Shown in pieces: positions 5,085-60,764 of a stretch of 64,000 bases of DNA. Origin of the DNA: Eucommia ulmoides (taxonomy: Eukaryota; Streptophyta; Magnoliopsida; Garryales; Eucommiaceae). The translations under genes were made by a program, and so were the position numbers. Below the pieces are notes generated by a model. It made no database searches. It had not been told where the DNA came from and was given only the letters and a program-made list of their open reading frames with translations. Each line of letters begins with the position of its first letter. The stretch's first letter is position 1. Location of the stretch: NCBI GenBank assembly GCA_016647705.1, contig CM028335.1, positions 1,302,001 through 1,366,000 of the forward strand, in the 5' to 3' direction.

Positions 5085-5264
5085 AGCAGTTACGATTTAA
5101 CTTTTCACATTATCAGTAATATGGAGGTCACGGGTTCGAATCGTGGAAACAGTCTTTTGTAAAAAAAAATGCAAGGTAAGATTGCTTATAATAGACCTAA
5201 GTGGCCTGACCCTTTCTTGGATCCCGTGCATAACGGAAGTTTTGTAGTACCAAACTGCCCTTTA
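5085..5264 (+). mobile_element. Au-type SINE, copy 1
   Basis: It contains a tRNA-like B box (GGTTCGAATC near 5133-5142) preceded by GAGGTCAC. It then has the Au SINE body order: GGAAACAG, CTTTTGTA, AGGTAAGATTGC, AATAGACC, GTGGCCTGACCC, GATCCCGTGCATAACGGAAG and a CTGCCC end followed by a T-rich tail. The Au family is known from many angiosperms. The left boundary is approximate and the A box is degenerate. Confidence 0.8.
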
Positions 5265-13885: not shown

Positions 13886-14271
13886 TTTCATATTACGTGA
13901 AAGAAGAATTATATTTTGGTCCCTAAAGTACAGGATGAGTGTTTATGTAGATCCTAAGATTTATCAAATTGTACATCGAGTCTCTCAAGTATCACATTTG
14001 TTTCAATTCAGGAAAATTAAAAAAAAATGAATAATTTTTTAGACAGAAAATGGGTAGTGTTCAGTATGTATATACATGTTTTTCTAACAAGGGTATTTTG
14101 GTACGTGTTCTTCTAATATGGATATTTTGGTCATTTCATCACTTCACTAAATATAAGACGTTTTTTTCTTAATGTTTACCTAGTGACAATTCGTCTGAAT
14201 ACTGAGAAAGAAACATGAATCGTTGTTAGAAAAATATTAGAGAAAACATCTTAAATTTAATGGAATAATAA

Positions 14272-14944
14272 TATTAAGAGGTTCCAACTTAAACCCATAC
14301 GGTGTCAAATGGTGTAACTCCTTTAACTTATATAGTGATTTGAAAACTTTCAAGTGATCGATGTGAGATATGAATCTAACACTCGCTCTTATGTGTAATC
14401 CCTGGTTTGCACGGAGATTTGATTGCGAAAGAATGATAAGAAACGTGTAACCTCCAGCTTGCACAGATGATTTGACTACGAGAGAATGAAAAACAAATTC
14501 TCATAACTTTGATTCTGATACTGTGTTAGAAGGTTTCAACTTAAAACCATATGATATCAATTGGAATAACTCTTTTTTTTTTTTTTCCTGAAAACGAACT
14601 CTTTATTAATGAATTGGAAAAATTACAACCTTAGGTGAGGAAGACCCTTTTGATCCTCACGAGCATAAGAAATTATGTCGTGAGATAATGGACTACCTAT
14701 AAGAAATAACAAAGGGCTGGACGAAACAATGTTAGTAAGACTATCAGCAACAAAATTACATTCTCGATGAACATGAAAAATCTGAATGTCAAATGATAGA
14801 ATCCAAAACCGAACTGTGTTCCAAAGATGGACAATCGACCAGATTGGGCTATCCTTCTTGATTGAATTAACCAAAGTTAACGAATCGCTTTGAGACATGA
14901 ATTTGGAAATTCTCAAGTGATCGATATGAGACATGAATTTAACA
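14272..14944 (-). mobile_element. TRIM retrotransposon (minus strand) with a LINE nested in one LTR
   Basis: LTR-like repeats lie at 14272-14381 and 14524-14944 (the latter split by the LINE at 14573-14898). They share GTTCCAAC/GTTTCAAC, AAACCATA, AACTC and CAAGTGATCGAT, and the right one has TGTTAG..TTAACA ends. Between them, next to the right LTR, GATTCTGATACTG reads on the minus strand as CAGTATCAGAATC, resembling the initiator-tRNA-Met primer-binding site. The internal region of about 140 bp is non-coding, as expected for a TRIM. Flanks AATAA/ATTAA are near-identical. Confidence 0.65.
14573..14898 (-). pseudogene. 5'-truncated LINE fragment with RNase H-like C terminus
   Basis: On the minus strand a frame ending at 14623 contains QSDSLTLVNSI and HVHRECNFVADSLTN. 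The latter fits the H..RE.N..AD.L signature at the end of the RNase H domain of plant L1 LINEs. A 14-T run (14573-14586) is the poly(A) tail in this orientation. Only the last about 90 codons and the 3' end are present, so it is a dead insertion. It sits inside the TRIM LTR, whose partner at 14272-14381 lacks it. Confidence 0.75.
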
Positions 14945-15221
14945 ATTAAAATGACAAAAATATCTTTATTAGAATTTCACGTGTTAAACATAACCCATTT
15001 TTTATCCAAAATAATTAACAACGTTTTCGATTTTACGGGATTGAAATAAATATAAAACTTAAAGGATCAAACGTGTAATTTTCCGTTATTACACATATTA
15101 GAACTCTGTCATATGTAAACTCTGTTCACTTATTGCACCCCAAAGTGAAGTAAAGATCCATAAACATCTCCTTCTCAGTTTCCCTTTCTTGCTCCAAAAA
15201 GGACTATAAACTTTACTCACG

Positions 15222-15378
15222 TTGCTCTATCTCTCTCTCTATACTCTCTCTCCTCTTTCTCTCTCTACTCTCTTTCTATCTCTGTGGTCCAACCAATCTA
15301 TACAGAAGAACTACGAAAACCCATATAATAGGAACAAGGGTTTGTGTTGATTTTTTGTCTTGGCTAGTAAAAAGGGAC
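15222..15378 (+). promoter_or_regulatory. CT-rich leader region of the HD-Zip gene
   Basis: CTCTCT-rich tract (15228-15283) about 100 bp before the HD-Zip ATG. It is typical of plant 5' UTRs and is also a potential GAGA-factor site. A TATA-like 'gactataaact' lies at about 15202-15212. The transcription start is not defined. Confidence 0.4.
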
Positions 15379-18300
15379 ATGGATTGGAATGGAAAATATA
15401 GACCCATTATCTCGCCAGAGAATTCTGGGAGCTTCTTCTATGGCTATAACTATGATCATTACTCAGGTAAACATCCAGTCCCATGTTGTTCTTGTTGTTT
15501 TTTCGACCATTCATATGATTATTTTTCACTGTTTTTTTCTTTCTTCTTGTCTTCCTTTGTCCATTTTAGTGAAAGAAAGAGAAAAATTTGTTTAGGCTGT
15601 ATGTACATCTCTCTCTCCTCTCCCTCTGTAGTTAAAGGTTTTTTTCGATATGGTGTGTCTTGACATGCCTCGACTAACACCTTATAGAGTGTTCCCTAGA
15701 AGAATCAAGCCTTGATTGAAAAGGAAAGGGACACCTATCTTTATCAACCGAACTAACACTTCTTAGATATATAGATGAAGTATGATATATCTTTCATGCT
15801 ATAGTTTGTATTTAAAAAAAATTGTTTTTTTTTTTTTTGTCATTATTTTCTTAGGAAAATCATAAATAAAAGCTAAATCCTTACTCTCTATCACGCCTCT
15901 ATCTATCACGGACGGTTTGAGAAGTGATAAAAAAATTCATGTATCACTAATTTTTGTAGTGATACATGATTTTTTTTTTTTAAAAAAATATATAAATTTG
16001 GAGACTGTTTTAAAAAAGTAATTTTAAAAAATAAAACCATAATTGAAGTATTTTTTTGAAATAAAAAAAAAAAAAGTGTATCTTATTTCTTGGGATGGAG
16101 TTCGGTTGACATCTTCACCTTTTATTTATTTATTTATTTTTATTTTTTTATGATTTATTCATTATCAGGATTGTATTAAGATATTATTTTATTTTATTAC
16201 TTTTCGTTTTAAATAAAACCACCTTTTTGTTAAATAACTTTATATATATATATATATATATATATTGTTGGGTTTATCTCACATCGGATGTAGAAGAGGC
16301 CGGTGGTCAGATTATAAGTGTGAGGGAAAGTCGCATCTCATAAGATAGCTTTTGGAGTCAAGAGAAATCCAAGACCAACGTACATTGATATCAGAGTTCA
16401 TTTTATAACAACTCTGACCTAATAGCCACAAAAGGAGAGACTGGTCGAGAGTTAGCTGACCAAAGACTCAATATATGAGGGAAAAAAACTATTAGGTTTA
16501 TCTTATATCGAATGTGGAAGAGGTTGACGGTCAAATTATAAGTGCATGTGAGAAAAGGTCTCATCTCATGATCTAATTTTTGACATTGAGAGAATCTCAA
16601 GACCACCCTATAACCACACACATATATATATATTGGTATATCCACAAGTGTCTCCACACCCACATAGGGTGTGAGACTAATTTCGTTTGGAGTGCGTGAC
16701 TGTCTTTCCAAACAAGTTTTTTTCTGCAGGCTCCACCCCACACACACACACATATATATATATATAAAGCATTATGAAATGGTGTCTAAAGGATATATAA
16801 AACTAATACTTTTGTTTTTGGTATTTATAAATTTAGGTCTAGAGTTCAAGAACCCAATGCAGACGGCACAGGGCATGGTAGAAGCCGAGAAATACTGCAG
16901 CCTTAACTATGGGATAAATCATCAAGAGAGGAAGAAGAGGTTGACGAGTAATCAACTGGAGTCACTGGAGAGCAGCTTCCAGGAGGAGGTGAAGCTTGAC
17001 CCTGACCGGAAAATGAGGCTGGCCAAGGAGCTCGGCATGCAGCCGCGGCAGGTCGCCGTCTGGTTTCAGAACCGCCGTGCCCGGTGGAAGGCCAAGCAGC
17101 TCGAGTCCCTGTACGACGCTCTCAGACAAGAGTTTACTGTTGTCTCCAGAGAGAAGCAGAAACTCCAAGAAGAGGTAACTCTCTCTCTATATAGTCTCTC
17201 TCTAGACATTTATATCCATGCAAGTTTTGTTTCATTTATGGAATGAGTAGAGATTTTAAAATTTATATCTTTAGTTCGGTTCGCAAGGGGAGGTGCCTCT
17301 TTTCTTGTCAACTAGGTTCGACTCTCCAATGTGAACAGTCTAGGAATTAAATCTTGAATTCAATCATCACTGCACCAAGTCGACGTGGGAGAGTGCGCCC
17401 TTAAGATTGCTCGAGGAGATGATTAGTCGAAGTGTACGTAAACTGACCCGAACACATCTTACCGTAACAAAAAAAATAAAAGAATAAATAAAAATTTATA
17501 AATACAAAAAATAATAAATAAATAAATAAAAATTGACTAAGGGCAATTCTAACGGTGAGCTCATTTGAAGGAGCCAAAATCCATAAGTAATTTGCCTAGC
17601 CAAAAACCAGGTATCTATTCCAACCCAAATAATATTTTGATTAGGCATTTTGACGAGAGAAAAAAAAACGCAACAATAGAAAGAGAGAGAAGATAAAGTT
17701 TCAAATCCACACCGTAAAAGGCAAAAAATTTGGCAAGCCTGTGGAGATTAGGTAGATATAGCTCAAAAAAGAGGAGCTTGGTAATTTGGCGAGTGCGTCG
17801 GAGCTGAATTTTCTTCTTTTGATTAAGCAGAATGGCCACTAACTATTTCGGCGACAACGATAGCTAGCAAGCCCATTAACTAATACATTATATTTATATA
17901 TATAACTTGAAAAAATCCAAACTATAATTAAAGTTAACCGTTTTTAACCATTTTTGTTCGTGAGAGTGAAATTTCTAGAATTTCACTTTGTAAGTGGGGT
18001 GTGCGATTCCTAAATATTTTATCAACTGATCGCAACCATCCATTCTTTTCACATTAATCCAAGCCTTTAATGAAAAAAATATTTTTTTTTAAAAAGGTCT
18101 TTATTTATTAATAGGGATTATCCGTGCCTAAACAATAAAATATATATATATATTAACTTAAATAGTGCAAAATATATTTAAATTTTTCATCTCGAAATTT
18201 TTTGGCCAAATTTTTGTTCTCTCAAAACTTTTATCATCCAGTCATGTCCATCCATTCCGATCAAATCAATTTGAACATTTAATAAAAAAATAATTGAATT

Positions 18301-18675
18301 CAGATTATCATATAATTAAGGGGTTAAAAGTGTAATATACAATCCTATGTATTCTTATCTTTTCCTACGTCGCGTTTATTAATTTATTACACTTTCTTTG
18401 TTTCATTCTGGAAAAAAAAAAAAAAAAAAAAGGTTCTGGCACTGAGAGCCATGCTGAAGGACCAAACCCTGAAAAACTCAGCCGCCGGTTACACGGATAT
18501 CTCCGGCGACGAGACCGCCGAGAGCACGACCTTTCCGGTTCAGAGCCGAATATCAAACGGAACGAGCTGTAGCCGCCACCCGAGTATCGCCGACGTTTTC
18601 GCCGCCTCCGCCGGGGGCAACTCTATTCCGATAATGCCACCGGCGTTTTGGGGTGGTTTCCCTTCTTATCCTTGA
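15379..18675 (+). CDS. HD-Zip class I transcription factor, LMI1/ATHB-51/ATHB-22-like (3 exons)
   Basis: Exons: 15379-15466 (ends ..TCAG|GTAAAC), 16837-17174 (acceptor TTTAG, donor GAG|GTAACT) and 18433-18675 (acceptor AAAG, stop TGA). Phases 1 and 0 join without a break and give 222 residues, close to the about 235 I recall for LMI1. The N terminus starts MDWNGKYRP, comparable to MEW in LMI1. The homeodomain spans about residues 61-117, with recognition helix [18 protein letters not shown]. The leucine zipper follows directly (about 118-153; leucine positions in [26 protein letters not shown]), running across the exon 2/3 junction. The C terminus ends WGGFPSYP, like the family's WPSYP. The protein should bind pseudopalindromic CAAT(N)ATTG as a dimer in the nucleus. 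Known relatives control meristem identity, leaf complexity and bud development. Intron 1 holds a TRIM, intron 2 a SINE; the last acceptor follows a 20-A run. Assignment to LMI1 rather than ATHB-22 is open. Confidence 0.92.
16266..16612 (+). mobile_element. TRIM retrotransposon in HD-Zip intron 1
   Basis: LTRs lie at 16266-16384 and 16490-16612. They share GGTTTATC, GTGGAAGAGG-type sequence, GGTCA(G/A)ATTATAAGTG, CATCTCAT and AAGACCA. The first LTR is followed at once by TTGATATCAGAGTTCA, a degenerate tRNA-Met primer-binding site, and the second is preceded by a polypurine tract GAGGGAAAAAAA (16478-16488). The internal region is only about 105 bp and non-coding. TA microsatellites flank it (16240-16265 and 16622-16632). 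No 5S-like block, so not Cassandra by eye. Confidence 0.75.
17276..17500 (+). mobile_element. Second-family tRNA-derived SINE in HD-Zip intron 2
   Basis: GCAAGGGGAGGTGCCTC is followed by the B box GGTTCGACTCTCC (17315-17327), ATTAAATCTTGAATTCAATC, GCACCAAGTCGACG, GAGAGTGCGCCC, GAAGTGTACGTAAACTGACC, CATCTTACCGTAAC and an A-rich tail. It is the better-preserved copy of the SINE at 12821-13012. It lies in sense orientation relative to the gene. Confidence 0.7.
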
Positions 18676-18745
18676 AGAATCAAATTTATGAGTTTGAGTT
18701 TGTTTATAAAAACTCTACCTATATATTTACTTAAAACTCTTTGGG

Positions 18746-18973
18746 GGTTTTGACACTTTATACCCCTGAAGTTTGATAATTATTTAGTTTTGATCCTCAT
18801 AGTTGTAATTGGAACACATAATATCCTGAAGTTCCATAATCAACCCACTTCAATCCAAATCGATAACTCCATTACAATTTTCGACGATCATTTTTAGGGG
18901 GACCTTATGACCATTTTTAACCTTTTTCTTTCACCCTTTAAAATTTTTACAGAAAAAAAAAAAAAAAAAATCA

Positions 18974-19019
<46 letters not shown>

Positions 19020-19262
19020 TTGAGTATTGGGTTGAGAAGGAAAATGGAAGGGAACGAGGAAGCTGAAATTGTCCATAAAATCTCTTAAAAATAGTTAGGT
19101 GCATGACATGTGACTCTTTTTTGTCCAAAATTGTAATGGAGATAATGAGTTGGATTGTAATGGGATAATTAAGAAACTTTAAGGTGTAATATGTTCAAAT
19201 TGAAAATATGGGGGACTAAAGTGATTTTTTGTCAAACATCAAGGGTCCAAAGTGTCAAAACC
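18746..19262. mobile_element. Foldback MITE immediately downstream of the HD-Zip stop codon
   Basis: The left arm begins GGTTTTGACACTTTATACCC and the right arm ends with the inverted AAAGTGTCAAAACC. Complementarity continues for roughly 90 bp (GTTTGA..TCAAAC, GGAACACATAATAT versus ATATGTTCAAATT). The centre holds A18 (18953-18970) and a (CA)n/(TA)n microsatellite (18975-19019). It starts 70 bp after the stop, so it probably overlaps the 3' UTR. The right half is also present at about 53930-54190. Confidence 0.7.
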
Positions 19263-19840
19263 TCCTTACTTAATTTAGGAAATTAAATTAGCTTTTAATT
19301 AGAGGGTAGTAACATAGAATTAATTTTCTCTCTAGAGTGGATGTTATTGGTCCACGTGTCCTTCAAAAAGAAATATTATTATTATTATTACTAGGATGAG
19401 GATGATGACGAGGACAAGGACAAGGACAAGTATGTTTTATTGTTACTTATCTTATAATTATTAATAATTTAAAAAAAATATATATATTAGTATGAAAATC
19501 ATGTTGATTTCCTTGCTGTCACATTAGAAAATATTAATGATATTACAATTTAATTTTGAATTTTGATTTTTTTTTTTTTTTTTTTTTTTTTACGTAAATC
19601 ACCAAGAAAGTCGCTTACCTGTCCAATTTCTAATGAAGCAAGATAGCCATTATTCCGATATAAATAGTAATTATCTGGTCTAAAAAATATATTGATCTGG
19701 GACATATCAAGATTCAGTCTTCAGTTCAAATTTCGTCGACCAATCCTTTCAAATTCGCATATTTGTTGAAATAATTTCTTTTGTAATTCATTCAATAAGG
19801 ATTCAGAAATATTCATACTGAATGTGGTTTGGTGAATGAT
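19263..19840. other. 3' flank of the HD-Zip gene, duplicated elsewhere
   Basis: Non-coding. The section 19263-19550, including TCTCTCTAGAGTGGATGTTATTGG-type sequence (split) and an (ATT)n run at 19371-19391, recurs at about 54190-54610 and its last part at about 56380-56510. A T run lies at 19568-19590. Confidence 0.6.
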
Positions 19841-31689: not shown

Positions 31690-32245
31690 GCGTTTGGTAA
31701 CTGTTTCTGTTTCCATTCCAGCAGTGGGATGAGAATGGAATGAGAATTTTGTTTTCTTTTTGGGAGTAGAATCGCGTTTGGTAACGATAATTTTTTTTTT
31801 TGTTTTGGGAAGGGAATTGTGTTTGGTAACGATTTTATCCTAAAATCTTTTTTTTTTTTTTTTTTTTTTGGCCTGACGGCGGTGGCGCCGTCGCCGGCTG
31901 GCCGGCCGGCGGTGCTCTGGCTTCGGAGACGGCGGTGGCGCCGGTCGGAAGACAATGGTGCCGTCACCGGCGACGGACGGAAGTGGGCGGCGGGCGGCGG
32001 CGGTCGGTGGTCGGCTGGTAGGTGAATAATGACCATGTGTTTTGGGAATGGAATAGGAATAACGAGAAACAACTTTTTTTTGTTTCTCATTTCTTAATAA
32101 AAAAGTGGGCACAATTCTCAAATGGGAATGAAATGGAAACGGAAACGGAAACAAAAATTACCAAACGCTATTCCCAAACAGAATTCCCAAAAATCTAGAA
32201 ATGAAATGAGAATTTCTGGAATGGAAATGGTTACCAAACGGGGCC
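31690..32245. mobile_element. PIF/Harbinger-like MITE, copy 2
   Basis: The left arm starts GCGTTTGGTAACTGTTTCTG and the right arm ends GGAAATGGTTACCAAACGGGGCC followed by TTA. The core 31868-32015 is GC-rich (ggcggtggcgccg) and differs from the other copies. An internal repeat of GTTTGGTAACGAT occurs at 31774 and 31820. The sequence without insertion (CCCTTAATTCTTCACGATC) is seen at 26931. Confidence 0.7.
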
Positions 32246-34389
32246 TTAATTCTTCAAGATCAATCTCATCCAAATTTGTAATGTTTAGGGTCGACGACAG
32301 AACCCAGTGGGTCGGCGGGTCGGATCGCGGATATTCCTATGTTTTCGCCATTTTTTGCACATTTTTTTTTTTATTTTCGACTATAATCTTGCAAAAATAA
32401 TAAATTGCATTATTATTAATTAAAAATTAATAAAAGATAATCAAAAGTGTAAATTAAGGGTGTAAATTTGGTATAAAATTGAGAACAATCACGTACTAAA
32501 GCGATTAAAATTTTACTGAGCATTAACTCATATCTCTACAGTATTTGTTGCAGGATTTACGAAAAAAAAAGTTGCTCCAAGTGAACATTGGAAAAAGATG
32601 TTTACACGTGTTAACACATGATTTTCATGAATGTTAACGTGTTATGTCCCCGCTCCTAAGTTTAAATATGATACGTGAATATTCAAGTACCATTCAAGTA
32701 ATTAAATATTTCTAGGTTTACATTTGCTCGAGTGATAGTCAACATCGTGAGTATGAACATAAATGGACATTAAACCATAAATGGACATTAAACCATAAAT
32801 GGTCACTCCCCAACTTCTGCCCCAATATTTGTTTTCAATTTCCTATTAATTGCCAATCAAATGGACCATTAAATGGTCCATTTGTATCCCCACTTCAAAA
32901 CAATGTTTTTCCCTCCCTACAATTCCATATATCCAATTAAATTCCCCTTTTAATTTGTTACCATTCTCCGAATTTGATTCCAAAAGAAACCCTTTAATTC
33001 CCTTAATTCTTCACGATCAATCTCATCCAGTAACGATTTCGGATCACGGGCGTGACCGGGTCGACAGGTCGGATCGCGGATATTGCTATGTTTTCGCTAT
33101 TTTTTACACATTTCTTTATTTTCGACTCTAATCCCGTGAAAATAATAAATCGTATTATTACTAATTAAAAATTAATAAAAAAGACTATCAAAAGGGTAGA
33201 TTAAAAGTCTAAATTTGGTATAAAATTGAGAACGATCACGTACTAAAGCGGTTAAAATTCTGTTGAGCGTTGACTCTTATTCCTACAGTATTTGTTGCAG
33301 GATCTACGAGAAAAAAAATTGGGCCAAGAATTATATTTGGATTTATATTCAATTCTGTAAAATTATATTTATTGTTAATTGTTGTAAAATTAGTTAAATT
33401 AATCAGAGTTTGGGATGTTACGGTTGTGAAATTGATCCCCATTTATCTGTATTGAAATATTCGTGGAAGAATTTTTAGTTTTAATTCTCTTCAGAAGAAA
33501 CCAATTGGCGATCCTAAGAAACTGGGTCATTACATCGATTGTTTTCGCTCATCTTAGGATTTGTTCAACGTTTTTTTATTGTTTTGAAATATTGAATGAA
33601 CATTGAAAAGGGATGTTGAGCACTAAAAAATAATACTCTTAATTGGTACCGCGATACTGATGTAGTACGGCGTTCAAGTAGAGGTGTCGAACCACAGAGA
33701 TCGATCTTATAATTATTAATTTCTAATTATTTTTCTTTTTGAAATGAAAATGAGATTTGATATTTTTTTTTTCAAAAAAGAAAAATAAAACACTAACTCT
33801 ACAAACAAAAGAAAATAGAGAACCGGGTTAGAAATTGTGGGTTTAGTAATTTGGATATTATTTTTTGTCTTGAATTTTTATTCAAATCGGATTTGTGTAA
33901 GCGAATGTTCCCAACTACAAGGCGAAATTACTCAGAAAGATTGGATTGTTATTCTCTAGTATGATTTATCTTCAATATTTAATTCCTACACTACATTAAT
34001 CTAACTAATCTAAGGTGAATTAATATCTAGGTATAAACCATTCAAATAAAAAATCAATCCCCAAGAATACGATTGTGTGACCGTTAAATCTAGACCACAA
34101 CTACTAGATCTAACGTTTTTAGTAGTAATTGGATTTAGATCAAAATCTCTACAAGAATATTTTTAAAATAAATCCAACCACAATAATAACAAAATCAAGA
34201 ACACAAATTCTCATGCTCGCCGCGGTGCTTCTCGTGCTCCATGCTCGCCGTTCACCGCTCCATCTCCCTCAGATCTGGAATTTTCAAGATTTTGAAATTT
34301 CAGATCTCTGAATATTCATGTTAATTTTGGTAGATTTTTTGTGAAATGTTCATATTGAATGTGGTTTGGTGAATGTTCACTCCGATAGT
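32246..34389. repeat. Rearranged copies of local repeat modules
   Basis: Contains a truncated TGTAA-type LTR (32277-32580), a 125-bp fragment of the tandem-array element (about 32592-32718, TTAACACATGATTTTCATG), the AAATGGACATTAAACCAT module (32755-33025), a further LTR (33030-33534, TAACGATTTCGGATC..TCATTACA) and a 'gatactgatgtagtacggcg' module (33650-34200). No gene; 34200-34310 is slightly GC-richer but unrecognised. Confidence 0.55.
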
Positions 34390-46049: not shown

Positions 46050-48760
46050 ATGTTGATCGCTCAAAAATAATACCCTTAAATCGTACCACGATACTGATGT
46101 AGTACGGCGTTCAAGTAGGGTGTCGAACCACAGGAATCGGTCTTGTAATTATTGATTTCTAATTATTTTTCTTTCCAAAATTTGATTTTTGTTTTTTCAT
46201 AAAAGAAAAATAAAACACTAACTCTACAAACAAAAGAAAATAGAGAACCGGGTTAGAAATTGTGAATTTAGTAATTTGGATATTATGTTTTTCTTGTATG
46301 TCTATTCAAATCGGATTTGTGTAAACGAATGTTCCCAACTACAAGCTAAAACTACGCAAAAAAAAACATTGGATTGTTATTCTCCGACATGATTTATCTT
46401 CGATATTTAATTTCTACACTACCCTAATCTAACTAATCTAAGGTGAATTAATATCTAGGCATAAACCATTCAATTCAATAATCAATTCCCAAGAATACGA
46501 TTGTGTGATCGTTAGATCTAGATCACAGGTACTAGATTTAATATTTTTAGTAGTAATTGGATTTAGATCAAAATATCTACAGAAACACTTTGAAAATAAA
46601 TCCAACCACAATAATAATAAAATCAAGAACACAAATTCTCATAACACAATTATTACACAAAATCCAAAATTAAATAGAAAAATACAATATTTCATAAATC
46701 CAAAACACATTACCATTACCATAATTCTAACCTGGTGAAGGAAGTTTATCCTTTCATTGTAATGAAAATTTTCAGATACGATCCTTGAAAATGTCATTAC
46801 CACTTTGCTCTGGATATCTTGATCTTCTACGTTGGAGGGGAGGAGAAGATGATGGAGGAAGATGGAGAAGAAGTTGCCTAAAATTATCTACAAGGAGGCC
46901 TCCATGGTAGGCTCCACCCTATGCCCTAATGCATCAATAAATAAAGAGTGGTTGGGAAAAATACAAAAGCAAATCAAGACAAAACATTAAAAAAAAAAAA
47001 GAAAAAAAAAGCGCATTGTTCATAAGCATGCGGATACTAATCATCCGCTATCACTGTTCACTCATGCATATACTATTCACATATTGAAAATATGTGAACA
47101 TTCGTGTTTGTTCGTTTTTTATCCGTTTTGCATTAATTTAACGCACTTTTGGTTCACTTTAAAAAACCTACAAAAATAAATAAAATAACTTAATTTCTAA
47201 TAATTAATTTATTTAAAAGATTAATAAATCGTAATTTAGTAGTATTAGAACGCACAAAAAATGTAGAAGAAGAAGAAGTTGCCTAAAATTATCTACAAGG
47301 AGGCCTCCATGGTAGGCTCCACCCCATGCCCGAATGCATCAATAAATAAAGAGTGGTTGGGAAAAATACAAAAACCAAAAATGAAAAGCGCACTGTTCAT
47401 AAGCATGCGGGTACTAATAATCCTCGATTACTTTTCATTTGCAGTCATTGTTTACTCATGCAGATACTATTCACGTATTAAAAATATGTGAACATTCGAG
47501 TTTTTTCGGGGTTTTTTTTATCCATTTTGCTTTAATTTAACGCATTTTTGGTCCACTTTAAAAAAATTATAAAAATAAATAAAATAACTTAATTTCTAAT
47601 AATTAATTTATTCAGAAGATTAACAAATCTTAATTTAGTGGTATTAGAACGCACAAAATACGGTGCGATCAGATGTTCACACATGTGTTAACACACGATT
47701 TTCATGAATGTTAACATGTTATGTCCCCATTCCTAAATTTAAATATGATACGTGAATATTCAAGTACTATTCAAATAATTGAATATTTCTAGGTTTACAT
47801 TTGTTATGTCCCCGTTCCTAGGTTTAAATATGATACTATTCAAGTAATTGAATATTTCTAGGTTTACTTAAAAATCAAGAATACGCGAACATTGTAGAAA
47901 ATAACTATTACGTAAATATTCACATAGAATATTTGAGTGAATATTGAGCAGAAATGAAATTGAGTGAACTGAAAAAATTGTTCTCAAATATTAGTGAATA
48001 TTCACGCAATTGTTAGAATGACACATTTTGTAAATAAGAATAAACAGGGAGGACGTTTGTTGGAGACTTTTTTCTATAGTTTTTTTTAGGACTATAAATT
48101 TAATTATTTGAATCAAAAAGTTTTTTTACAATTTACCCATCTTTGGAGGACTAAACAACAATTTTTCCTTTAAAATTATATAGTGCAAGTCCTTTAACTT
48201 ATAAATTAATACTAATAATTAAAAAGTGGAAAGAGAGAAAAGTTTTAATGAGTTTGGAGAATTTTTTTTTTTTCAAGCATTTTGGTGTGTTATTATATTA
48301 CCTTTTATTTTTTTTAATATATAAAATAATTATTTAATTTTTTTTTCTAATTAATGCATAAATATATGATTAATTTTCCTAATGCACATTTTAAATTACT
48401 TAAAAATAATTGTGAGTGAAAAAATATTTCCAACAAAAAAGAAATTAGATACGATATAAATTAATTAAATTAAAATTTATTTATGGTTATTTATTTATAA
48501 TTTTATAATACATTAATAAAAATTAATTTGTAATTTTTAAAAAAAAAATTAATATTATATTTATTTTAGATATTTATAAAATGTCATACTCAATAAAATT
48601 TATGCATACGCTCCTGGATATTGCTATCAAAGTAACAAAATAATACATATGTATTTCATACTTCAATATTAAGAATTTATTATAATTTTTTTAAACCTGC
48701 GCAATGAGCGGGTCTAAACTAGCAAGATTTTATACCCGAGACCCTGTAAAATTTTATATA
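46050..48760. repeat. Tandem array unit 1
   Basis: Begins with GATCGCTCAAAAATAATACCC and ends with the Helitron-like terminus GCGCAATGAGCGGGTCTAAACTAG (about 48700-48722) plus AAGATTTTATACCCGAGACC. Within it, a roughly 405-bp stretch is duplicated (GTTGCCTAAAATTATCTA at about 46874 and 47279). Open frames of 64-77 codons recur in all units but lie in diverged non-coding repeat. Confidence 0.7.
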
Positions 48761-51291
48761 TAAAATAATAAAAATATAATTGTCGCCGTAGTTGTCAATT
48801 TTTTATTAGATCTTTACAAATTGAAAAATTGGTCGTTCAGGGTTAGCGTTAATTTCTCAAATGGGAGAAACCTAGTGGCGGTCCTGAAAAATTGGGTCGT
48901 TACAATGTTGATCGCTCAAAAATAATACCCTTAATTGGTACCGCGATACTGATGTAGTACGGCGTTCAAGTAGGGTGTCGAAGTACATGGATCGGTCTTA
49001 TAATTATTGATTTCTAATTATTTTTCTTTCCGAAATGAAAACGAGATTTGATTTTTGATTTTTCATAAAAGAAAAATAAAACACTAACTCTACAAACAAA
49101 AGAAAATAAAGAACCGGGTTAGAAATTGTGAATTTAGTAATTTGGATATTATGTTTTTCTTGTATTTCTATTCAAATTGGATTTGTGTAAACGAATGTTC
49201 CCAACTACAAGCTAAAACTACGCAAAAAAAACATTGGATTGTTATTCTCTGACATGATTTATCTTCGATATTTAATTCCTACACTACCCTAATCTAACTA
49301 ATCTAAGGTGAATTAATATCTAGGCATAAACCATTCAATTCAATAATCAATTCCCAAGAATACGATTGTGTGATCGTTAGATCTAGATCACAGGTACTAG
49401 ATTTAACATTTTTAGTAGTAATTGGATTTAGATCAAAATCTCTACAGAAACACTTTGAAAATAAATTCAACCACAATAATAATAAAATCAAGAACACAAA
49501 TTCTCATCACACAATTATTACACAAAATCTAAAATTAAATAGAAAAATACAATATTTCATAAATCCAAAGCACATTACCATTACCATAATTCTAACTTGG
49601 TGAAGAAAGTTTATCCTTTCATTGTAATGAAAAATGACGTTTTTTCAGATACAATCCTTAAAAATGCCATTACCGCTTTGCTCTTGATATCTTGATCTTC
49701 TACGTTCGAGGAGAGGAGAAGATGATGGAGGAAGAAGAAGAAGAAATTGCCTAAAATTATCTAGAAGGAGGCCTCCATGGTAGGCTCCACCCTATGCCCG
49801 AATGCATCAATAAATAAAGAGTGGTTGGGAAAAATACAAAAGCAAATCAAGACAAAACATTTAAAAAAAAAAACAAAACAAAACAAAACAAAACCAAACC
49901 AAATCAGCCGTAAAAACAAAAAATGAAAAGCGCACTGTTCATAAGCATGCGGGTACTAATCATCCTCGATTACTATTCATCTGCAGTCATTGTTGACTCA
50001 TGCAGATACTATTCACGTATTAAAAATATGTGAACATTCGTGTTTTTTCGGGGGGGGGGGTTTTATCCGTTTTGCTTTAATTTAACGCATTTTTGGTCCA
50101 CTTTAAAAAAACTATAAAAATAAATAAAATAACTTAATTTCTAATAATTAATTTATTCAGAAGATTAACAAATCTTAGTTTAGTGGTATTAGAACGCACA
50201 AAATACGGTGCGATCAGATGTTCACGCGTGTTAACACACGATTTTCATGAATGTTAACGTGTTATGTCCCCATTCCTAAATTTAAATATAATACGTGAAT
50301 ATTCAAGTACTATTCAAGTAATTGAATATTTCTAGGTTTACATTTGTTTTGTCCCCGTTCCAAGGTTTAAATATGATACCATTCAAGTAATTGAATATTT
50401 CTAGGTTTACTTAAAAATCAAGAATACACGAACATTGTAGAAAATAACTTTTACGTAAACATTCACACAGAATATTTAAGTGAAAATTGAGCGGAAATGA
50501 AATTGAGTGAACTGAAAAAATTGTTCTCAAATATTAGTGAATATTCACGTAATTGTTAGAATGACACATTTCGTAAATAAGAATAAACAGGAAGGACGTT
50601 TGTTGGAGACTTTTTTCTACAGTTTTTTTTAGGACTATAAATTTAATTATTTGAGTCAAAAAGTTTTTTCACAATTTACCCATATTTGGAGGACTAAACA
50701 ACAATTTTTCCTTTAAAATTATATAGTGCAAGTCCTTTAACTTATAATATAATACTAATAATTAAAAAGTGGAAAGAGAGAAAAGTTTTAATGAGGTTGG
50801 AGAATATATTTTTTTTCAAATATTTTGGTATGTTCTTATATTACCTTTTATTTTTTTTAATATATAAAATATTTTTTTTTAATTAATGCATAAATATATG
50901 ATTAATTTTCCTAATGCACATTTTAAATTAATTAAAAATAATTGTGAGTGAAAAAATATTTCCAACAAAAAAGAAATTAAATACGATATAAATTAATTAA
51001 ATTAAAATTTATTTATGGTTATTTATTTATAATTTTATAATACATTAATAAAAATTAATTTGTAATTTTTTTAAAAAAAATTAATATTATATTTATTTTA
51101 GATATTTATAAAATGTCATACTCAATAAAATTTATGCATACGCTCCTGGATATTGCTATCAAAGTAACAAAATAATACATATGTATTTCATACTTCAATA
51201 TTAAGAATTTATTATAATTTTTTTAAACCTGCGCAATGAGCGGGTCTAAACTAGCAAGATTTTATACCCGAGACCCTGTAAAATTTTATAT
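48761..51291. repeat. Tandem array unit 2 (recombinant)
   Basis: Nearly identical to unit 3 at a constant 2532-bp offset up to about 50930. From about 51045 it instead matches unit 1. It starts with the last about 140 bp of the TGTAATACCCC-type LTR (to 48902). A poly-G run is at 50051-50060, shorter in unit 3. Confidence 0.8.
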
Positions 51292-53812
51292 ATAAAATAA
51301 TAAAAATATAATTGTCGCCGTAGTTGTCAATTTTTTATTAGATCTTTACAAATTGAAAAATTGGTCGTTCAGGGTTAGCGTTAATTTCTCAAATGGGAGA
51401 AACCTAGTGGCGGTCCTGAAAAATTGGGTCGTTACAATGTTGATCGCTCAAAAATAATACCCTTAATTGGTACCGCGATACTGATGTAGTACGGCGTTCA
51501 AGTAGGGTGTCGAAGTACATGGATCGGTCTTATAATTATTGATTTCTAATTATTTTTCTTTCCGAAATGAAAACGAGATTTGATTTTTGATTTTTCATAA
51601 AAGAAAAATAAAACACTAACTCTACAAACAAAAGAAAATAAAGAACCGGGTTAGAAATTGTGAATTTAGTAATTTGGATATTATGTTTTTCTTGTATTTC
51701 TATTCAAATTGGATTTGTGTAAACGAATGTTCCCAACTACAAGCTAAAACTACGCAAAAAAAACATTGGATTGTTATTCTCTGACATGATTTATCTTCGA
51801 TATTTAATTCCTACACTACCCTAATCTAACTAATCTAAGGTGAATTAATATCTAGGCATAAACCATTCAATTCAATAATCAATTCCCAAGAATACGATTG
51901 TGTGATCGTTAGATCTAGATCACAGGTACTAGATTTAACATTTTTAGTAGTAATTGGATTTAGATCAAAATCTCTACAGAAACACTTTGAAAATAAATTC
52001 AACCACAATAATAATAAAATCAAGAACACAAATTCTCATCACACAATTATTACACAAAATCTAAAATTAAATAGAAAAATACAATATTTCATAAATCCAA
52101 AGCACATTACCATTACCATAATTCTAACTTGGTGAAGAAAGTTTATCCTTTCATTGTAATGAAAAATGACGTTTTTTCGGATACAATCCTTAAAAATGCC
52201 ATTACCGCTTTGCTCTTGATATCTTGATCTTCTACGTTCGAGGAGAGGAGAAGATGATGGAGGAAGAGGAAGAAGAAATTGCCTAAAATTATCTAGAAGG
52301 AGGCCTCCATGGTAGGCTCCACCCTATGCCCGAATGCATCAATAAATAAAGAGTGGTTGGGAAAAATACAAAAGCAAATCAAGACAAAACATTTAAAAAA
52401 AAAAAAAAAACAAAACAAAACAAAACCAAACCAAATCAGCCGTAAAAACAAAAAATGAAAAGCGCACTGTTCATAAGCATGCGGGTACTAATCATCCTCG
52501 ATTACTATTCATCTGCAGTCATTGTTGACTCATGCAGATACTATTCACGTATTAAAAATATGTGAACATTCGTGTTTTTTCGGGGGGGTTTTTATCCGTT
52601 TTGCTTTAATTTAACGCATTTTTGGTCCACTTTAAAAAAACTATAAAAATAAATAAAATAACTTAATTTCTAATAATTAATTTATTCAGAAGATTAACAA
52701 ATCTTAGTTTAGTGGTATTAGAACGCACAAAATACGGTGCGATCAGATGTTCACGCGTGTTAACACACGATTTTCATGAATGTTAACGTGTTATGTCCCC
52801 ATTCCTAAATTTAAATATAATACGTGAATATTCAAGTACTATTCAAGTAATTGAATATTTCTAGGTTTACATTTGTTTTGTCCCCGTTCCAAGGTTTAAA
52901 TATGATACCATTCAAGTAATTGAATATTTCTAGGTTTACTTAAAAATCAAGAATACACGAACATTGTAGAAAATAACTTTTACGTAAACATTCACACAGA
53001 ATATTTAAGTGAAAATTGAGCGGAAATGAAATTGAGTGAACTGAAAAAATTGTTCTCAAATATTAGTGAATATTCACGTAATTGTTAGAATGACACATTT
53101 CGTAAATAAGAATAAACAGGAAGGACGTTTGTTGGAGACTTTTTTCTACAGTTTTTTTTAGGACTATAAATTTAATTATTTGAGTCAAAAAGTTTTTTCA
53201 CAATTTACCCATATTTGGAGGACTAAACAACAATTTTTCCTTTAAAATTATATAGTGCAAGTCCTTTAACTTATAATATAATACTAATAATTAAAAAGTG
53301 GAAAGAGAGAAAAGTTTTAATGAGGTTGGAGAATATATTTTTTTTCAAATATTTTGGTATGTTCTTATATTACCTTTTATTTTTTTTAATATATAAAATA
53401 TTTTTTTTTAATTAATGCATAAATATATGATTAATTTTCCTAATGCACATTTTAAATTAATTAAAAATAATTGTGAGTGAAAAAATATTTCCAACAAAAA
53501 AGAAATTAGATACGATATAAATTAATTAAATTAAAATTTATTTATGGTTATTTATTTATAATTTTATAATACATTAGTAAAAATTAATTTGTAATTTTTT
53601 TAAAAAAATTATTTATATAATTTTTAATGGTATATTTATTTTCGATATTTATGAAATGCCATTACTCAATAAAATTTATGCATACGCTCCCGGATATTAC
53701 TATCTAAGTAACAAAATAATGCATATGTATTTCATACTTTAATATTAAGAATTTATTATAATTTTTTTAAACCCGCGCAATGAGCGGGTCTAAACTAGCA
53801 AGATTTTATACC
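51292..53812. repeat. Tandem array unit 3
   Basis: Third unit; its end has the best-preserved Helitron-like 3' terminus: hairpin CCCGC..GCGGG at 53772-53790, spacer TCTAAA and CTAG at 53796-53799. Its right part resembles the single copy at 59236-60345 more than it resembles units 1 and 2. Confidence 0.8.
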
Positions 53813-53817
53813 TGAGA

Positions 53818-53907
53818 CCCTGTAAAACTCAACCGCTGGTTACATGGATATCTCTGGCAACGAGACCATCGAGAGCACGACCTATCCGATTCAGAGCCAA
53901 ATATAAA
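53818..53907 (+). pseudogene. Decayed copy of HD-Zip exon 3
   Basis: About 89 bases align without gaps to 18467-18555 of the HD-Zip last exon, with 12 differences. One (A to T) turns the lysine codon after CTG into TAA at 53823-53825. Nine of the 12 are C-to-T or G-to-A relative to the gene, six of them at CpG. The copy stops in a TA/TG microsatellite (53905-53937) and resumes in the right half of the gene's downstream MITE, so about 450 bp including the exon end was deleted. No exons 1 or 2 are present. Non-functional. Confidence 0.9.
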
Positions 53908-54620
53908 TATATATATGTGTGTGTGTGTGTGTACGTATATTTTTTAGTACTGGGCTGAGATGGAAAATGGGAGGGAATGAGGAAGTTAAAATTGTCTATA
54001 AAATCTCATAAAAATAGTTAAGTGCATGACATGTGATTCTTTTTTGGCCAAAATTGTAATGGAGATAATGAGTTGGATTGTACTGCTATAATTAAAAAAA
54101 AATATATGGTGTAATATGTTCAAATTGAAACTATGGGGGACTAAAGTGATTTTTTGTCAAACATCAGGGGTTCAAATTGTCAAAACCTCCTTACTTAATG
54201 TAGGAAATTAAATTAGCTTTTAATTAGAGGGTAGTAACATACAATTAATTTTCTCTCTAGAGTGGATGTTATTGGCCCACGTGTCCTTAAAAACAAGTTC
54301 TATTATTATTATTATTATTATTGAAAGTGACCTAGAAGTTACGGGTTCGAGTCGTGAAAATAGCATTTTGTAAAAAAGTAGGGTAAGACTGCGTACAATA
54401 GACCTAAATAGTCTGACACTTTCTTAAATCCGAATATAGCAAGAGTTTTGTAGTACCGAGCTGCTATTTATTATTATTATTAGGAGGATGATGACGAGGA
54501 CGGCAACTATATTTTATTGTTACTTATCTTACAATTATTAATAATTTTAAAAAATAAATATATTAGTATGAAATTCATGATAATTTCCTTGTTGTCACGC
54601 TATAAAATATTAAGATAAGT
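53908..54620. repeat. Duplicated 3' flank of the HD-Zip gene
   Basis: Matches about 19005-19550: the right MITE arm (to GTCAAAACCTCCTTAC), TCTCTCTAGAGTGGATG, an (ATT)n run, GATGATGACGAGGAC and TTATTGTTACTTATCTTA. It is interrupted by a SINE at the (ATT)n run that is absent from the original. Confidence 0.85.
54323..54464 (+). mobile_element. Au-type SINE, copy 3, inside the duplicated flank
   Basis: GAAAGTGACCTAGAAGTTAC is followed by B box GGTTCGAGTC (about 54344), AAAATAGCATTTTGTA, GGTAAGACTGCGTACAATAG, ACCTAAATAGTCTGAC, GAGTTTTGTAGTACCGAGCTG. It is flanked on both sides by ATTATTATT, the likely target duplication. The original locus (19371-19391) is empty. Confidence 0.85.
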
Positions 54621-56598
54621 ACGACATCATTTGAGTTTTTAAAGGGGGGAAATTATAATTTTTAGTTCTGGTAGATCGTGAGATTTGTCAAATTGTACAG
54701 TTGATCTCTCACGTTTTACATTTATTTCAATCCCATAAAATTAAAAATACTTTTAATGATTTTAAATAAAAAATCAATTATAATCAACCAAAGATATTTT
54801 CGTTATTTGTCATTTCACAAAATTCAATTTTTTTTTTAATAACAATTAAAAATAAAAAATAAAAAAATCAGACAAATGGTTGTTAGAAAAAAAATATCTT
54901 ATATTTAATGATAGAAATATCTTCATTACAAGATCATGTGCGGCGGAGGTTCCGGAACTTCCTTGACCAAAGGTGGCTGTATACATAAAACATATGGACA
55001 TCCCAGTTGTCTACTTAAACATTGATTATTTAACAATTTCAAATTAAAAGAAGTTGCCCTACCCTTTTAAAAGAGAGCTACTGCTGCAGTAGACAAAAAC
55101 CAATTTGGTCCCCACTTTTTTCCTCAATTATTCTTTAGGGTAGCCCCATCTACACATGGGTTGGTCGGTGATCGCTTAAATATAATACTCAAATTTAAGA
55201 GTAAAATATTTTAGTATAATGTACTCAAGTACGGGTGTCGAACCACATGGATTGAATTGTAATTATTAATTATTTTCTTATTTTTCAGTTGAATTCAGCA
55301 AGATTGGTTTTGAAATTTTTTAGTGAAAAAAATTAAATTAAAATATTAAATGATAAATAATGGGGTTGAGGGCATGCATTCGTCTTTCGATTATCTTAAT
55401 GCGTTTTCCTTTTTTATCTATTTTAATTCTATATATATTGAAGTTATTTAGATATAAGAAAAATTACAACGAGAACTTGATTATTTAATCGGCATGAACT
55501 ATCTTTGGGATTCGGTTTCTAATAAATAATGAACCAATCCCTAAACATAATTCATCCTATTAAATACATCGATTAATCGACCATTTAATCGGTATATACT
55601 ATCTTCGAAATTCGAATTATACTAATTTACGGTGAATCAATCCCTAAGTATAATACATCTTATTAAACTGTATCGATTCCAGTAAATACAGATTGTATAA
55701 CAGTTAGATTTAAACCACATGGATTAGATATAACCCAAAAACATCAATAAATTATTTCTAACATTTAAAAATTGATTTCAATAACAATGTAAGAATACAT
55801 CTGTATTCTTATAGTGAATCAATCCCTAAGTATAATACATCTTATTAAACTGTATCGATTCCAGTAAATACAGATTGTATAACAGTTAGATTTAAACCAC
55901 ATGGATTAGATATAACCCAAAAACATCAATAAATTATTTCTAACATTTAAAAATTGATTTCAATAACAATGTAAGAACATGCATTTTTAACTCTGTGTAT
56001 AATAAAGTAGGTCCATTCTCTCAATATATTTTCGTCTGTGTTGTGTTTGGGTTTCAACTGAAAATAAGAAAAAAAAATGATAAGAGGGAGTTCGGCGGTG
56101 GAGAAAATTTTTTAGGGGTTCACTTGATGTTAGAGTATTTGATTCTCTATCTAAGAGCATTTTTTAAAAGATGAAACTTTTTTAGAGGTTCATTTAAAAT
56201 TAATATAAATTAGATGATGAGTATATAAAATTTTAAAGATTGTAATTAATTTTTTGTAAAAATAAAAAGGTGAAAATATATTTTTTCTAAAAATTAGTCT
56301 AGGGTAGGAACATTAATAGCGAAAAATAAAATATAGAATATTGATTTGATAGAAATAAAAAAAAATTATTTTTAGTACTGTATTATTATTATTATTATTA
56401 CCTTTTAATTATTAGTAGCTTAAAAAAAATTAATTTGAAAATCACGATGATTGAGATGTGATTTCCTTGCTGTTACGTTAAAAAAATATTAAGATATATA
56501 AGTCATCATTTGAGGTTTTAAAGGGGAATTACAATTTTATGTTCCGGGTAGGCGTCGAAAGATCTTGAGATTTGTCAAATGGTACAGTTGATCTCTTA
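54621..56598. repeat. Repeat modules, including a 182-bp tandem duplication
   Basis: 54640-54950 is related to the foldback MITE at 13904. 55000-55180 recurs at 57640-57810 (CAAATTAAAAGAAGTTGCCC, GTAGACAAAAACCAATTTGG). 55190-55990 is the ATCGGCATGAACTAT module. 55632-55813 is tandemly repeated at 55814-55977 almost without change. 56380-56510 is a third partial copy of the HD-Zip 3' flank. No gene. Confidence 0.65.
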
Positions 56599-57179: not shown

Positions 57180-59235
57180 TAACATTCTACATTTATTTCA
57201 ATTCCATATAATTGAAAACGTTTTTAATGATTTTAAATAAAATAAAAAAATAGATTATAATCAACTAGTGATCTTTTATAATCAACTAGTGATCTTTAAG
57301 TGGGAATATTTTCGTCATTTATCATTTCACGAAATTCAAGAAATTTTTCTTTCATAACAATTTTAAAAAAAAAAAATTATTTTCCAGATGAATCGTTGTT
57401 AGAAAAAGATATCTTAAATTTAATAATAAAAATATCTTCATTACAAGGTCATGTGCGGAGGTTCCGAAACTTCCTTGACCTAACGTGTCTGTATACATAA
57501 AATATAGGAAATCTTGTTGAGAGGTCCCAAGACTCAAAAAATCACTTTCTAAGGATCATTTCATGTGTTAAAAAATCACTGTTACATGATCCCACAGAGT
57601 GATAATTTTATAGAATAGAACTTTTCACCAAATTTTTCTAAAACATAAGGACATCCCAGTTGCCTAGTTAAACATTGATTATTTAACAATTTCAAATTAA
57701 AAGAAGTTGCCCCACACTTTTAAAAGAGAGCTACTGCCGCAGTAGACAAAAACCAATTTGGTCCCCACTTTTTTCCTCAATTATTCTTTAGGGTAGATCT
57801 CCACATGGGTTGGTTGGTGATCGCTTAAATATAATACCCAAATTTAAGAGTAAAATATTTTAGTATAATGTACTCAAGTACGGGTGTCAAACCACATAGA
57901 TTGGATTGTAATTATTAATTATTTTTTTTATTTTTCAGTTGAATTCAACGACATTGGTTTTGAAATTTTTTAGTGAAAAAAATTAAATAAAAATACTAAA
58001 TGATAAATAACAGGGTTAAGGGCATGCATTCGTCTTTCGATTATCGTAATGCGTTTTAATTCTATGTATAATAAAATAATTTAACTACAAGAAAAATTAC
58101 AACGAGAGCTTGATTATTTAATCGGCATGAACTATTTTCGGGATTCGGTTCCTAATCAATAATGAACCAATCTCTAAACATAATTCATCATATCAAATAC
58201 ATCGATTAATCGACCATTTAATCGGTATATACTATCTTCGAAATTCGAATTATACTAATTTACGGTAAATCAATCCCTAAGTATAACACATCCTATTAAA
58301 CCATAGGGATTAGATATAACCCAAAAACATCAATAAATTATTTCTAATATTTAAAAATTGATTTTAATAATAATGTAAAAACATGCATTCTTTGTCATAC
58401 AATCTTAATACATATTTAAAATAAAACAAGAAATTAAACTACAAAAATTTAACAATAAATATAGTCTGACTCAGATTTGTCTGAGTTGTTCATGGATTGT
58501 TATTGCTCGAGTGATAGTCAACATCGTGAGTATGAACATAAATGGACATTAAACCATAAACGGACATTAAACCATAAATGGTCAATCCTGCCCAATATTT
58601 GTTTTCAATTTCCTACGATTAAATGGTCCATTTGTATCCCCACTTCTCAATGCTTTTCCTCCCTTAAATTCCCTTAATTATTCGAGATCAATCTCATCCA
58701 AATTTGTAATGTTTAGGGCTGACGACAGAACCCAGTGGGTTGGTAGGTCGGATCGCGGAGATTCCTATGTTTTCGCCATTTTTTGCACATTCTTTTTTTT
58801 ATTTTCGACTGTAATCTTGCAAAAATAATAAATTGCATTATTATTAATTAAAAATTAATAAAAGATAATCAAAAGTGATTAAAATTTTACTGAGTGTTGA
58901 CTCATATCCCTACAGTATTTGTTGCAGGATTTACGAAAAAAAAAGTTGCGCCAAGAATTATATTTGGATTTGTATTTAATTCAGTAAAATTGTATTTATT
59001 ATTAATTATTGTAAAATTAATTAAATTAATCAAAATTTGGGACGTTACAATTGTGAAATTGATCCAGATTTATCTGTATTGAAATATTTGTGGTAGACTT
59101 TTTAGTTTTAATTCTCTTCAGAAGAAATCGATTGGCGGTCTTAAGAGACCAGGTCGTTATACTGATTGTTTTCGCTCATCTTAGAATTTGTTCAACGTTT
59201 TTTTATTGTTTTGAAATATTCAGTGAACATTAGAA
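57180..59235. repeat. Repeat modules and a diverged TGTAA-type LTR
   Basis: 57180-57480 continues the repeat interrupted by the MITE. 57640-58480 matches 55000-55800. 58490-58700 is the AAATGGACATTAAACCAT module. 58705-59161 is a diverged LTR (TGTAATG..GGTCGTTATA). No gene. Confidence 0.6.
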
Positions 59236-60345
59236 AAAAATGTTCACACATGTGTTAACACACGATTTTCATGGATGTTAACGTGTTATGTTCCCGCTCC
59301 TAAGTTTAAATATGATACGTGAATATTCAAATACCATTCAAGTAATTAAATATTTCTAGGTTTACATTTGTTATGTCCTGGTTCCTAGGTTTAAATATGA
59401 TACGATTCAAGTAATTAAATATTTCTAGGTTTACTTAAAAAACAAGAATACGGAACATTGTAGAAAATAACTTTTACGTAAACATTCACACAGAATATTT
59501 GAGTGAAAATTGAGCCGAAATGAAATTGAGTGAACTGAAAAAATTGTTCTTAAATATTAGTGAATATTCACGCAATTATCAGAATGACACATTTCGTAAA
59601 TAAGAATAAACAGGGAGGACGTTTATTGAAGACTTTTTTTTATAGTTTTTTTGAAGACTATAAATTTAATTATTTGAGTCAAAAGGTTTTTTTTACAATT
59701 TACTCATTTTTGGAGGACTAAATAATAAATTTTCCTTTAACTTATAATCTAATACTAATACTTAAAAAATGGAAGTAGAGAAAAGTTTTAACGAGTTTGG
59801 AAAATATTTTTTTCAAGCATTTTGGTGAATTCTTATATTACCTTTTATTTTTTTTAATATAACAAATAATTATTTGATTTTTTTTCTAATTAATGCAGAA
59901 ATATATGATTAATTTTCCTAGTGAACATTTTAAATTATTTAAAAATAATTGTGAGTGAAAAAATATTTCCAACCTAAAAGAAATTAGATACGATATAAAT
60001 TAATTAAATTAGAATTTATTTAGACTTACAAAAATTGATAAAATTAATCATAATTTACGGTTATTTATTTTTAATTTTATAATACATTAGTAAAAATTAA
60101 TTTGTAAAAATATTATTTCGTTTTAAAATTATTTATATAATTTTTAATAATATATTTATTTTCGATATTTATGAAATGTCATTACTCAATAAAATATATG
60201 TATACGCTCTCGGATATTATTACCAAAGTTACAAAATTAATACGTATGTATTCCATACTTCAATATTAAGAATTTATTATAATTTTTTTAAACCCGTGAG
60301 ATGAGCAAGTTTAAACTAGTAAGATTTTATACCCGAGACACCCTA
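59236..60345. mobile_element. Single copy of the tandem-array element with Helitron-like end
   Basis: From TGTTCACACATGTGTTAACACACG to AACCCGTGAGATGAGCAAGTTTAAACTAG (split; about 60290-60320) and AAGATTTTATACCCGAGAC. It matches the right parts of array units 1-3 and serves as an outgroup for them. Its hairpin is mutated. Non-coding. Confidence 0.6.
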
Positions 60346-60764
60346 TATCATTTCAACAAATATTAAGGAAATTTCTGTCATTTTTAATGTCTGAGTTATC
60401 CTTGTAACATAATATTTTTATTATTTATTTTATATTTATATTTATATTTTTTACTCTCTCTTATTTATATATATATATATATATTTTACTTATTATGTAT
60501 TTTTATTCATTTATTTTAATTTTTTTGGTGTACGGAAGTAGAAAATTTAAAAAAAATTAAAAAAATCGAAAAGTAATAATAATAATAATAAAAAAAAAAA
60601 TAGAACTTGAAAATTAAAAACTAAATTTAAAAAAATAAAATAATATCAAAGGAAATACTATTTTCTCTTTCTTTCTTCTTTATTTATTTTATTTAAAATT
60701 TTCTGTTTGTCTTTTCATGTTTTTTGTTTTCTAGTTTTTTACTAATATAAAAAAGGGACAATCG
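60346..60764. other. Low-complexity AT-rich DNA
   Basis: Extreme A/T content with a TA tract (60468-60484) and (AAT)n (60575-60592). No feature recognised. Confidence 0.5.

Follow-up and report, generated by a model that had tools for sequence, protein, structure and literature searches.

A truncated copy of the last exon of an HD-Zip I gene in Eucommia ulmoides, probably the left end of an old tandem duplicate

Introduction

A decayed piece of the last exon of an HD-Zip I gene lies in repeat DNA 35 kb from that gene in Eucommia ulmoides, which raises the question of how the piece came to be there and whether it acts on its parent. The window, that is the whole stretch of DNA analysed here, measures 64 kb and belongs to a genome of 946.7 Mb, to which all genome-wide searches refer.

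Parent HD-Zip gene

The gene and the two corresponding parts of exon 3 are located as follows.

15379..18675, forward strand: parent HD-Zip I (LMI1-like) gene, with exons at 15379-15466, 16837-17174 and 18433-18675, 222 aa
18466..18556, forward strand: source part of exon 3 (codons 154-184), copied at 53817-53907; proposed left breakpoint at about 18466-18468
53817..53907, forward strand: decayed exon 3 fragment, 86.8% identical to 18466-18556

The three joined exons encode 222 aa and a stop codon, and both introns have GT/AG borders. Pfam was searched at a threshold of E 0.01 with the spliced gene and nine of the 32 stop-to-stop reading frames of at least 100 aa. The parent protein gave a Homeodomain match (E 3.8e-18, residues 61-114) and a HALZ match of 26.6 bits (residues 116-150), which is below the cut-off of 28.1. 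Over all these queries, Homeodomain, a Myb/SANT-like domain and an RVT_3 domain were above cut-off, and HALZ, Homeobox_KN, CENP-F_N and DUF5743 were below it. A PDB search returned 111 matches, and the 60 of these that were listed are homeodomain-type proteins. The label LMI1-type follows the first-pass annotation and is putative.

The whole parent protein matched 31 places in the genome, four of which are its own three exons and the fragment, and the ten best of the other matches had 46-59% identity to it; the gene has no second close gene in this genome. With the parent protein, clustered HD-Zip-like reading frames, part of them interrupted by stops, were also detected at G000:C15:57203895-57662298. 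Two further reading frames were observed on the minus strand of the window: an RNase-H-like (RVT_3) remnant about 400 bp upstream of the parent ATG (14623-14976), and a frame of 441 aa with a Myb/SANT-like DNA-binding domain (663-1988), which we presume may be a trihelix-type gene.

Exon 3 fragment

The first-pass annotation had described a gapless match to exon 3 outside the gene, without upstream exons or introns and followed by the gene's own 3' flank, and had concluded that this was a DNA-level fragment, decayed and lying in repeat DNA, rather than a retrocopy. All of this was confirmed. In a BLAST comparison of the window with itself, 53817-53907 was aligned to 18466-18556 over 91 bp with 12 mismatches and no gaps (86.8%, E 1e-24), in the orientation of the parent and on the same chromosome. 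The score of exon 3 against the fragment region was 122; among 1000 Markov-shuffled regions the highest score was 26, and no other place in the 64-kb window scored above 25. When the 90-bp fragment was searched against the whole genome, two matches were obtained, the fragment itself and the parent. Since the exon match is accompanied by a flank match and only these two places exist in the genome, the fragment is a real, unique and truncated copy of exon 3.

No further parent exons were detected at the copy by tblastn of the 222-aa protein, which, besides the fragment and the gene's own three exons, gave a single 12-aa match at chance level (E 3.7); likewise, blastn of 15301-18466 (E 1e-3) gave no match to the right of the parent gene. 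The fragment comprises 31 codons with two in-frame stops and no start codon. Its source codons fall outside the Homeodomain and HALZ matches, and the match takes in 531 aligned non-coding bases, which rules out a conserved motif as the sole explanation. A retrocopy is excluded by the single exon part, the start in mid-exon and the genomic 3' flank that was copied with it. An assembly artefact is unlikely, because the two copies differ by about 9% and by different indels on a contig of 43.8 Mb.

Copied 3' flank

Right of the fragment, the flank of the parent gene can be followed in two blocks, and part of it recurs a third time.

18735..19265, forward strand: foldback MITE with a TTACTTAA site on either side, located after the parent stop codon; only its right part is present in the copy
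53936..54617, forward strand: copy of the parent's 3' flank (right MITE part followed by more flank), interrupted by an insertion at about 54335-54470
56384..56497, forward strand: a third occurrence of the parent's 3'-flank tail, further diverged, with 13 of 97 aligned bases different from the parent

The first block (53936-54320 against 19013-19393) differs from the parent at 33 of 381 aligned bases (90.4% identity by BLAST), and the second (54468-54617 against 19379-19542) at 14 of 150, giving a substitution level of 8.7-9.3%. Between the exon and the flank blocks the parent has 456 bases (18557-19012), made up of the remaining coding exon and the left part of the foldback element, whereas the copy has 28, a loss of about 430 bp. 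The insertion in the copy resembles 5124-5264 and is, we presume from its look, SINE-like.

The third copy was recognised by a local score of 47.5, where 500 shuffles did not exceed 28, and 54510-54709 and 56384-56596 differ at 29 of 189 bases. A left counterpart for it was not found at E 1e-10. The repeats that follow it are of the same kinds as those after the second copy. Since the tail is present at 56384-56497 besides 53817-54617, the 3' edge of the parent appears to have taken part in two or more duplications.

Just right of the copied flank, 54671-54774 matches 13947-14023 and, inverted, 14997-15081, both upstream of the parent gene; because of their orientation and place we take these matches to be dispersed repeats. 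Further right, a direct repeat of 164 bp with 100% identity (55632-55795 and 55814-55977) was observed, which is probably recent.

Joint and repeat units

The left edge of the fragment abuts a repeat unit, here called W, and the features around this joint are listed below.

47673..53818, forward strand: left of the joint, the younger tandem array W1-V2-W2-V3-W3, with CCTGTAAAA at both internal W/V joints
53274..53798, forward strand: Helitron-like element ending repeat unit W3, with hairpin ACCCGC/GCGGGT and a CTAG end; its 5' end is at 53274 or about 53374
53817..53827, no strand assigned: joint between the W3 repeat-unit end and exon 3 (ACCCTGTAAAA)
59240..60339, forward strand: repeat unit Wr and presumed native right context; proposed right breakpoint at about 60339

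Four W ends are present in the window, those of W1 (48742), W2 (51274), W3 (53818) and Wr (60339). After the ends of W1 and W2 come CCTGTAAAA and next unit V, after that of W3 CCTGTAAAA and next exon 3, and after that of Wr GAGAC and next ACCCTATATC; at E 1e-3 the sequence right of Wr (60340-60740) matched no other place in the window. Native exon 3 reads ACCAAACCCTGAAAAACTC at the corresponding site. The overlap at the joint is 2 bp, the 5-mer ACCCT occurs in both parental sequences, and the W/V joints have ACCCTG.AAAA in common with exon 3 (10 of 11 bases). The window thus appears to keep the native left context, the joint and, on this reading, the native right context of a direct tandem duplication.

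A simple insertion of the fragment into the W/V array is ruled out by the lack of any V match right of the fragment. The array itself (48760-53827) consists of 2.5-kb tandem units, the V parts of which differ at four of 1441 bases, suggesting recent amplification.

The Helitron-like element has a hairpin near its CTAG (a CTRR-type end) at 53795-53798. Among the genome matches to W, which were listed from 40 scored of 2330 first-look candidates, 20 of the 91 listed stop exactly at this CTAG, and on the 5' side the dispersed matches listed begin at several places. Of six dispersed loci examined, four cover the end, and each of these has a T after CTAG; two of them have identical flanks. The element with identical flanks is found on contigs C123 and C67 (loci L016 and L017), perhaps redundant unplaced contigs. 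Within the window the base after CTAG is T in Wr and C in W1-W3. Two more Helitron-like ends with hairpin, CTAG and a following T lie in the array on the minus strand (27975 and 44218).

The 20 bases before the joint are common to W1-W3 and Wr with one or two changes. They are local flank and lie outside the Helitron-like element. The fragment starts 19 bp past the CTAG end, so it lies outside the element termini.

Divergence of the duplicated units

Substitution fractions, with gaps excluded, were obtained for units on the right against their partners on the left. The values were 47/531 (0.0885) for the flank and 89/1044 (0.0852) for W3 and Wr; those for X1 (42/484, 0.0868) and X2 (75/841, 0.0892) are against partners that were partly our own choice. 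The four fractions are homogeneous (p 0.99). The flank and W are unambiguous pairs, and the X figures lean on the choice of partner, since X2 fits X1L equally well (57/661, 0.086) and the X tree pairs the copies differently from the partners used.

Other units do not fit this value. Unit T (0.15) and unit Z against its long partners (0.128-0.139) are above the proposed date, and 58503-59370 against 32244-32926 (0.041-0.053) is below it; when T and Z are added to the flank, W and X set, the fractions become heterogeneous (p 1.3e-5). The order of the X and T units also differs between the two sides. The misfit of T, Z and 58503-59370 therefore means that exchange at this locus happened more than once.

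To the left of the joint, those duplications that were measured are younger (0.003-0.067): large blocks 0.046-0.067, V1-V2 0.054, W1-W3 0.044, W2-W3 0.012 and V2-V3 0.003. Plant substitution rates are 6.5e-9 to 1.5e-8 per site and year, at which a K of 0.09 corresponds very roughly to 3 to 7 million years, and to more in slow-evolving trees.

Origin of the fragment

The reading we prefer, with a probability of about 0.6, is that a direct tandem duplication gave rise to a second copy truncated within exon 3, of which the fragment forms the left end. One breakpoint would have been inside exon 3 (about 18466-18468), with its counterpart 20 bp beyond the CTAG of the Helitron-like element, at the point now seen at 60339 with its native right flank. 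Their joining, presumably of the microhomology type, would have given the contact of repeat end and exon 3 at 53817-53827. The copy would have been dead at birth, because it came without promoter, exons 1-2 and introns. Afterwards it would have lost the remaining exon and part of the MITE, gained the SINE-like insertion and taken changes mostly of the C-to-T kind, and later multiplication of the local units left of the joint would have moved it to 35 kb from the gene.

All three breakpoint contexts are present in the window, the divergences of the flank, W and, with the partners chosen, X agree, and exons 1-2 and the introns have left no trace, from which we infer a single event. Within this genome, the right side of Wr is read as native, and changes are read from parent to copy. 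Against a duplication of a single date stand the misfit of T, Z and 58503-59370, the different X/T order and the third flank-tail copy without a left counterpart.

A second question is which junction came first. A TAA is in frame at 53823-53825 of the fragment, and the first-pass annotation had ascribed it to an A-to-T change in the exon copy. The T and the stop are indeed there, but the T lies inside CCTGTAAAA and is also present at the two exon-less W/V joints (after 48742 and 51274), so that a change within the fragment is not clear; the window contains CCTGTAAAA at one further place, 41021, which makes four in all. The W/V joint may thus have come first and the exon been joined later, the T at 53823 being derived from the repeat and the stop being no mutation. 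This order is compatible with a duplication of the whole gene as well. V copies at 29656 and 45905 carry TTGTAAAAATTTC just upstream, so TGTAAAA could be native to V; aligning that stretch, however, requires a deletion of about 9 bp (by eye). The divergence of the exon copying (about 0.085-0.09 from the flank and W pairs), set against 0.044 for W1-W3 and 0.003 for V2-V3, makes the exon joint look older than the W/V amplification, and CCTGTAAAA at the W/V joints then reads as a scrap of exon 3 carried along. We regard the W/V-first order as somewhat unlikely. The divergence ages fit an early change in the exon copy, with the 9-base scrap later carried into the W/V units, and this is the order that we tend to favour. 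The locus also cautions against taking a stop codon beside a duplication joint for a sign of decay.

An unlikely alternative is that a whole second gene copy arose by tandem duplication and that a later deletion removed its promoter, exons 1-2 and introns. This would yield the same fragment and the same flank divergence, the motif ACCCTG.AAAA shared by the W/V joints and exon 3 is a plausible deletion microhomology, and RCO, a functional duplicate of LMI1 (PMC5131777), gives a precedent for full duplication. It needs two events, the first of which leaves no trace, and neither tblastn nor blastn detected a piece of exons 1-2 or the introns right of the gene.

It is offered only tentatively, and we consider it rather doubtful, that the 3' edge of the parent is a recurrent duplication breakpoint used in at least two events of differing age. 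The locus would then represent failed attempts at an RCO-like duplicate, and the younger W/V joints would keep a 9-base scrap of the exon.

Capture of the exon piece by a transposon of Helitron or MULE type, which then dropped it here, is very improbable. The Helitron-like 3' end just left of the fragment, and plant-gene fragments documented inside Helitrons (PMC2702305), speak for it. It was rejected as the main reading since the exon lies beyond the CTAG end and not between the element ends, the 20 bp in between recur at the end of Wr with one or two changes and no exon after them, and the copied piece brings along the 3' flank with part of the MITE in native order.

Most of the marks of a truncated, unprocessed duplicate are thus found in the fragment (copied flank, same chromosome and orientation, identifiable joint, lost coding capacity), and it has the marks of neither a retrocopy nor a Helitron capture.

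Decay of the copy

Besides the TAA at the joint, the end of the match contains another, where the parent has TCA; neither stop matters much, because the copy has no upstream exon. From parent to copy, nine of the 12 exon differences are C>T or G>A, the direction expected for methylated DNA. By site these unpolarised changes were found at 6 of 22 CG, 3 of 17 CHG and 0 of 13 CHH positions; the excess of CG and CHG over CHH (9/39 against 0/13, p 0.09) is not significant alone, and neither is the faster rate of the exon (p 0.13). Of 11 changed codons, two are synonymous, seven are replacements and two are stops. Because nine of the 11 are replacements or stops, the fragment shows no sign of constraint, and its coding capacity is lost.

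Small RNA and the foldback element

The fragment had also been put forward as a source of antisense or small RNA against the parent, which was not borne out and which we hold to be very unlikely. In its favour, 69 of the 365 windows of 21 columns in the flank alignment show no difference from the parent. The fragment, however, has the orientation of its parent, and its exon part contains no 21-, 22- or 24-mer with fewer than two mismatches to the parent, the longest exact run being 14. About the first 280 bases of the copied flank belong to a dispersed MITE family, for which 40 of 1404 first-look genome candidates were scored, and Rfam at the gathering threshold gave no match in the whole window. 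As far as can be seen from the sequence, the fragment would be inert.

The foldback MITE begins about 60 bp after the parent stop codon and consists of an inverted repeat (18743-18885 and 19123-19265) bracketed by TTACTTAA at 18727 and 19266. The predicted RNA fold of 18733-19283 has -156.9 kcal/mol (z -7.5), and 0 of 100 shuffles were as stable. If the gene is touched by small RNA at all, the MITE hairpin would be a likelier source of double-stranded or small RNA than the fragment. The element (18735-19265) is also a candidate regulator in the 3' UTR.

Comparison with known duplicates

The locus is a real, well explained and ordinary genomic relic, and nothing points to function. Fragments of GIGANTEA carried in Lolium Helitrons (PMC2702305) are similar in that a decayed piece of a developmental gene lies near a Helitron-like end with hairpin and CTAG. 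There the fragment is within the Helitron (PMC2702305), whereas here it is outside, past the 3' end. HvARM1 of the Triticeae, a functional partial duplicate of HvPUB15, is likewise a partial DNA copy of a plant gene; it has the needed ATG, signs of constraint and a function (PMC6092874), whereas the present fragment has 31 codons that include two stops, lacks a start and shows no sign of constraint.

The left context, joint and right context of an old tandem duplication seem to be preserved in one window, and the flank and W pairs agree in divergence, which makes the locus mostly a clean worked example. RCO stands in tandem with LMI1. In crucifers, RCO is a functional duplicate of LMI1 (PMC5131777), so that there, as here, an LMI1-type HD-Zip I gene was duplicated. 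RCO is complete and neofunctionalised (PMC5131777), whereas the copy described here starts in the last exon, and for that reason nothing functional would have been made. A recurrent breakpoint, if real, would be relevant to the way in which leaf-shape regulators such as RCO start out as duplicates.
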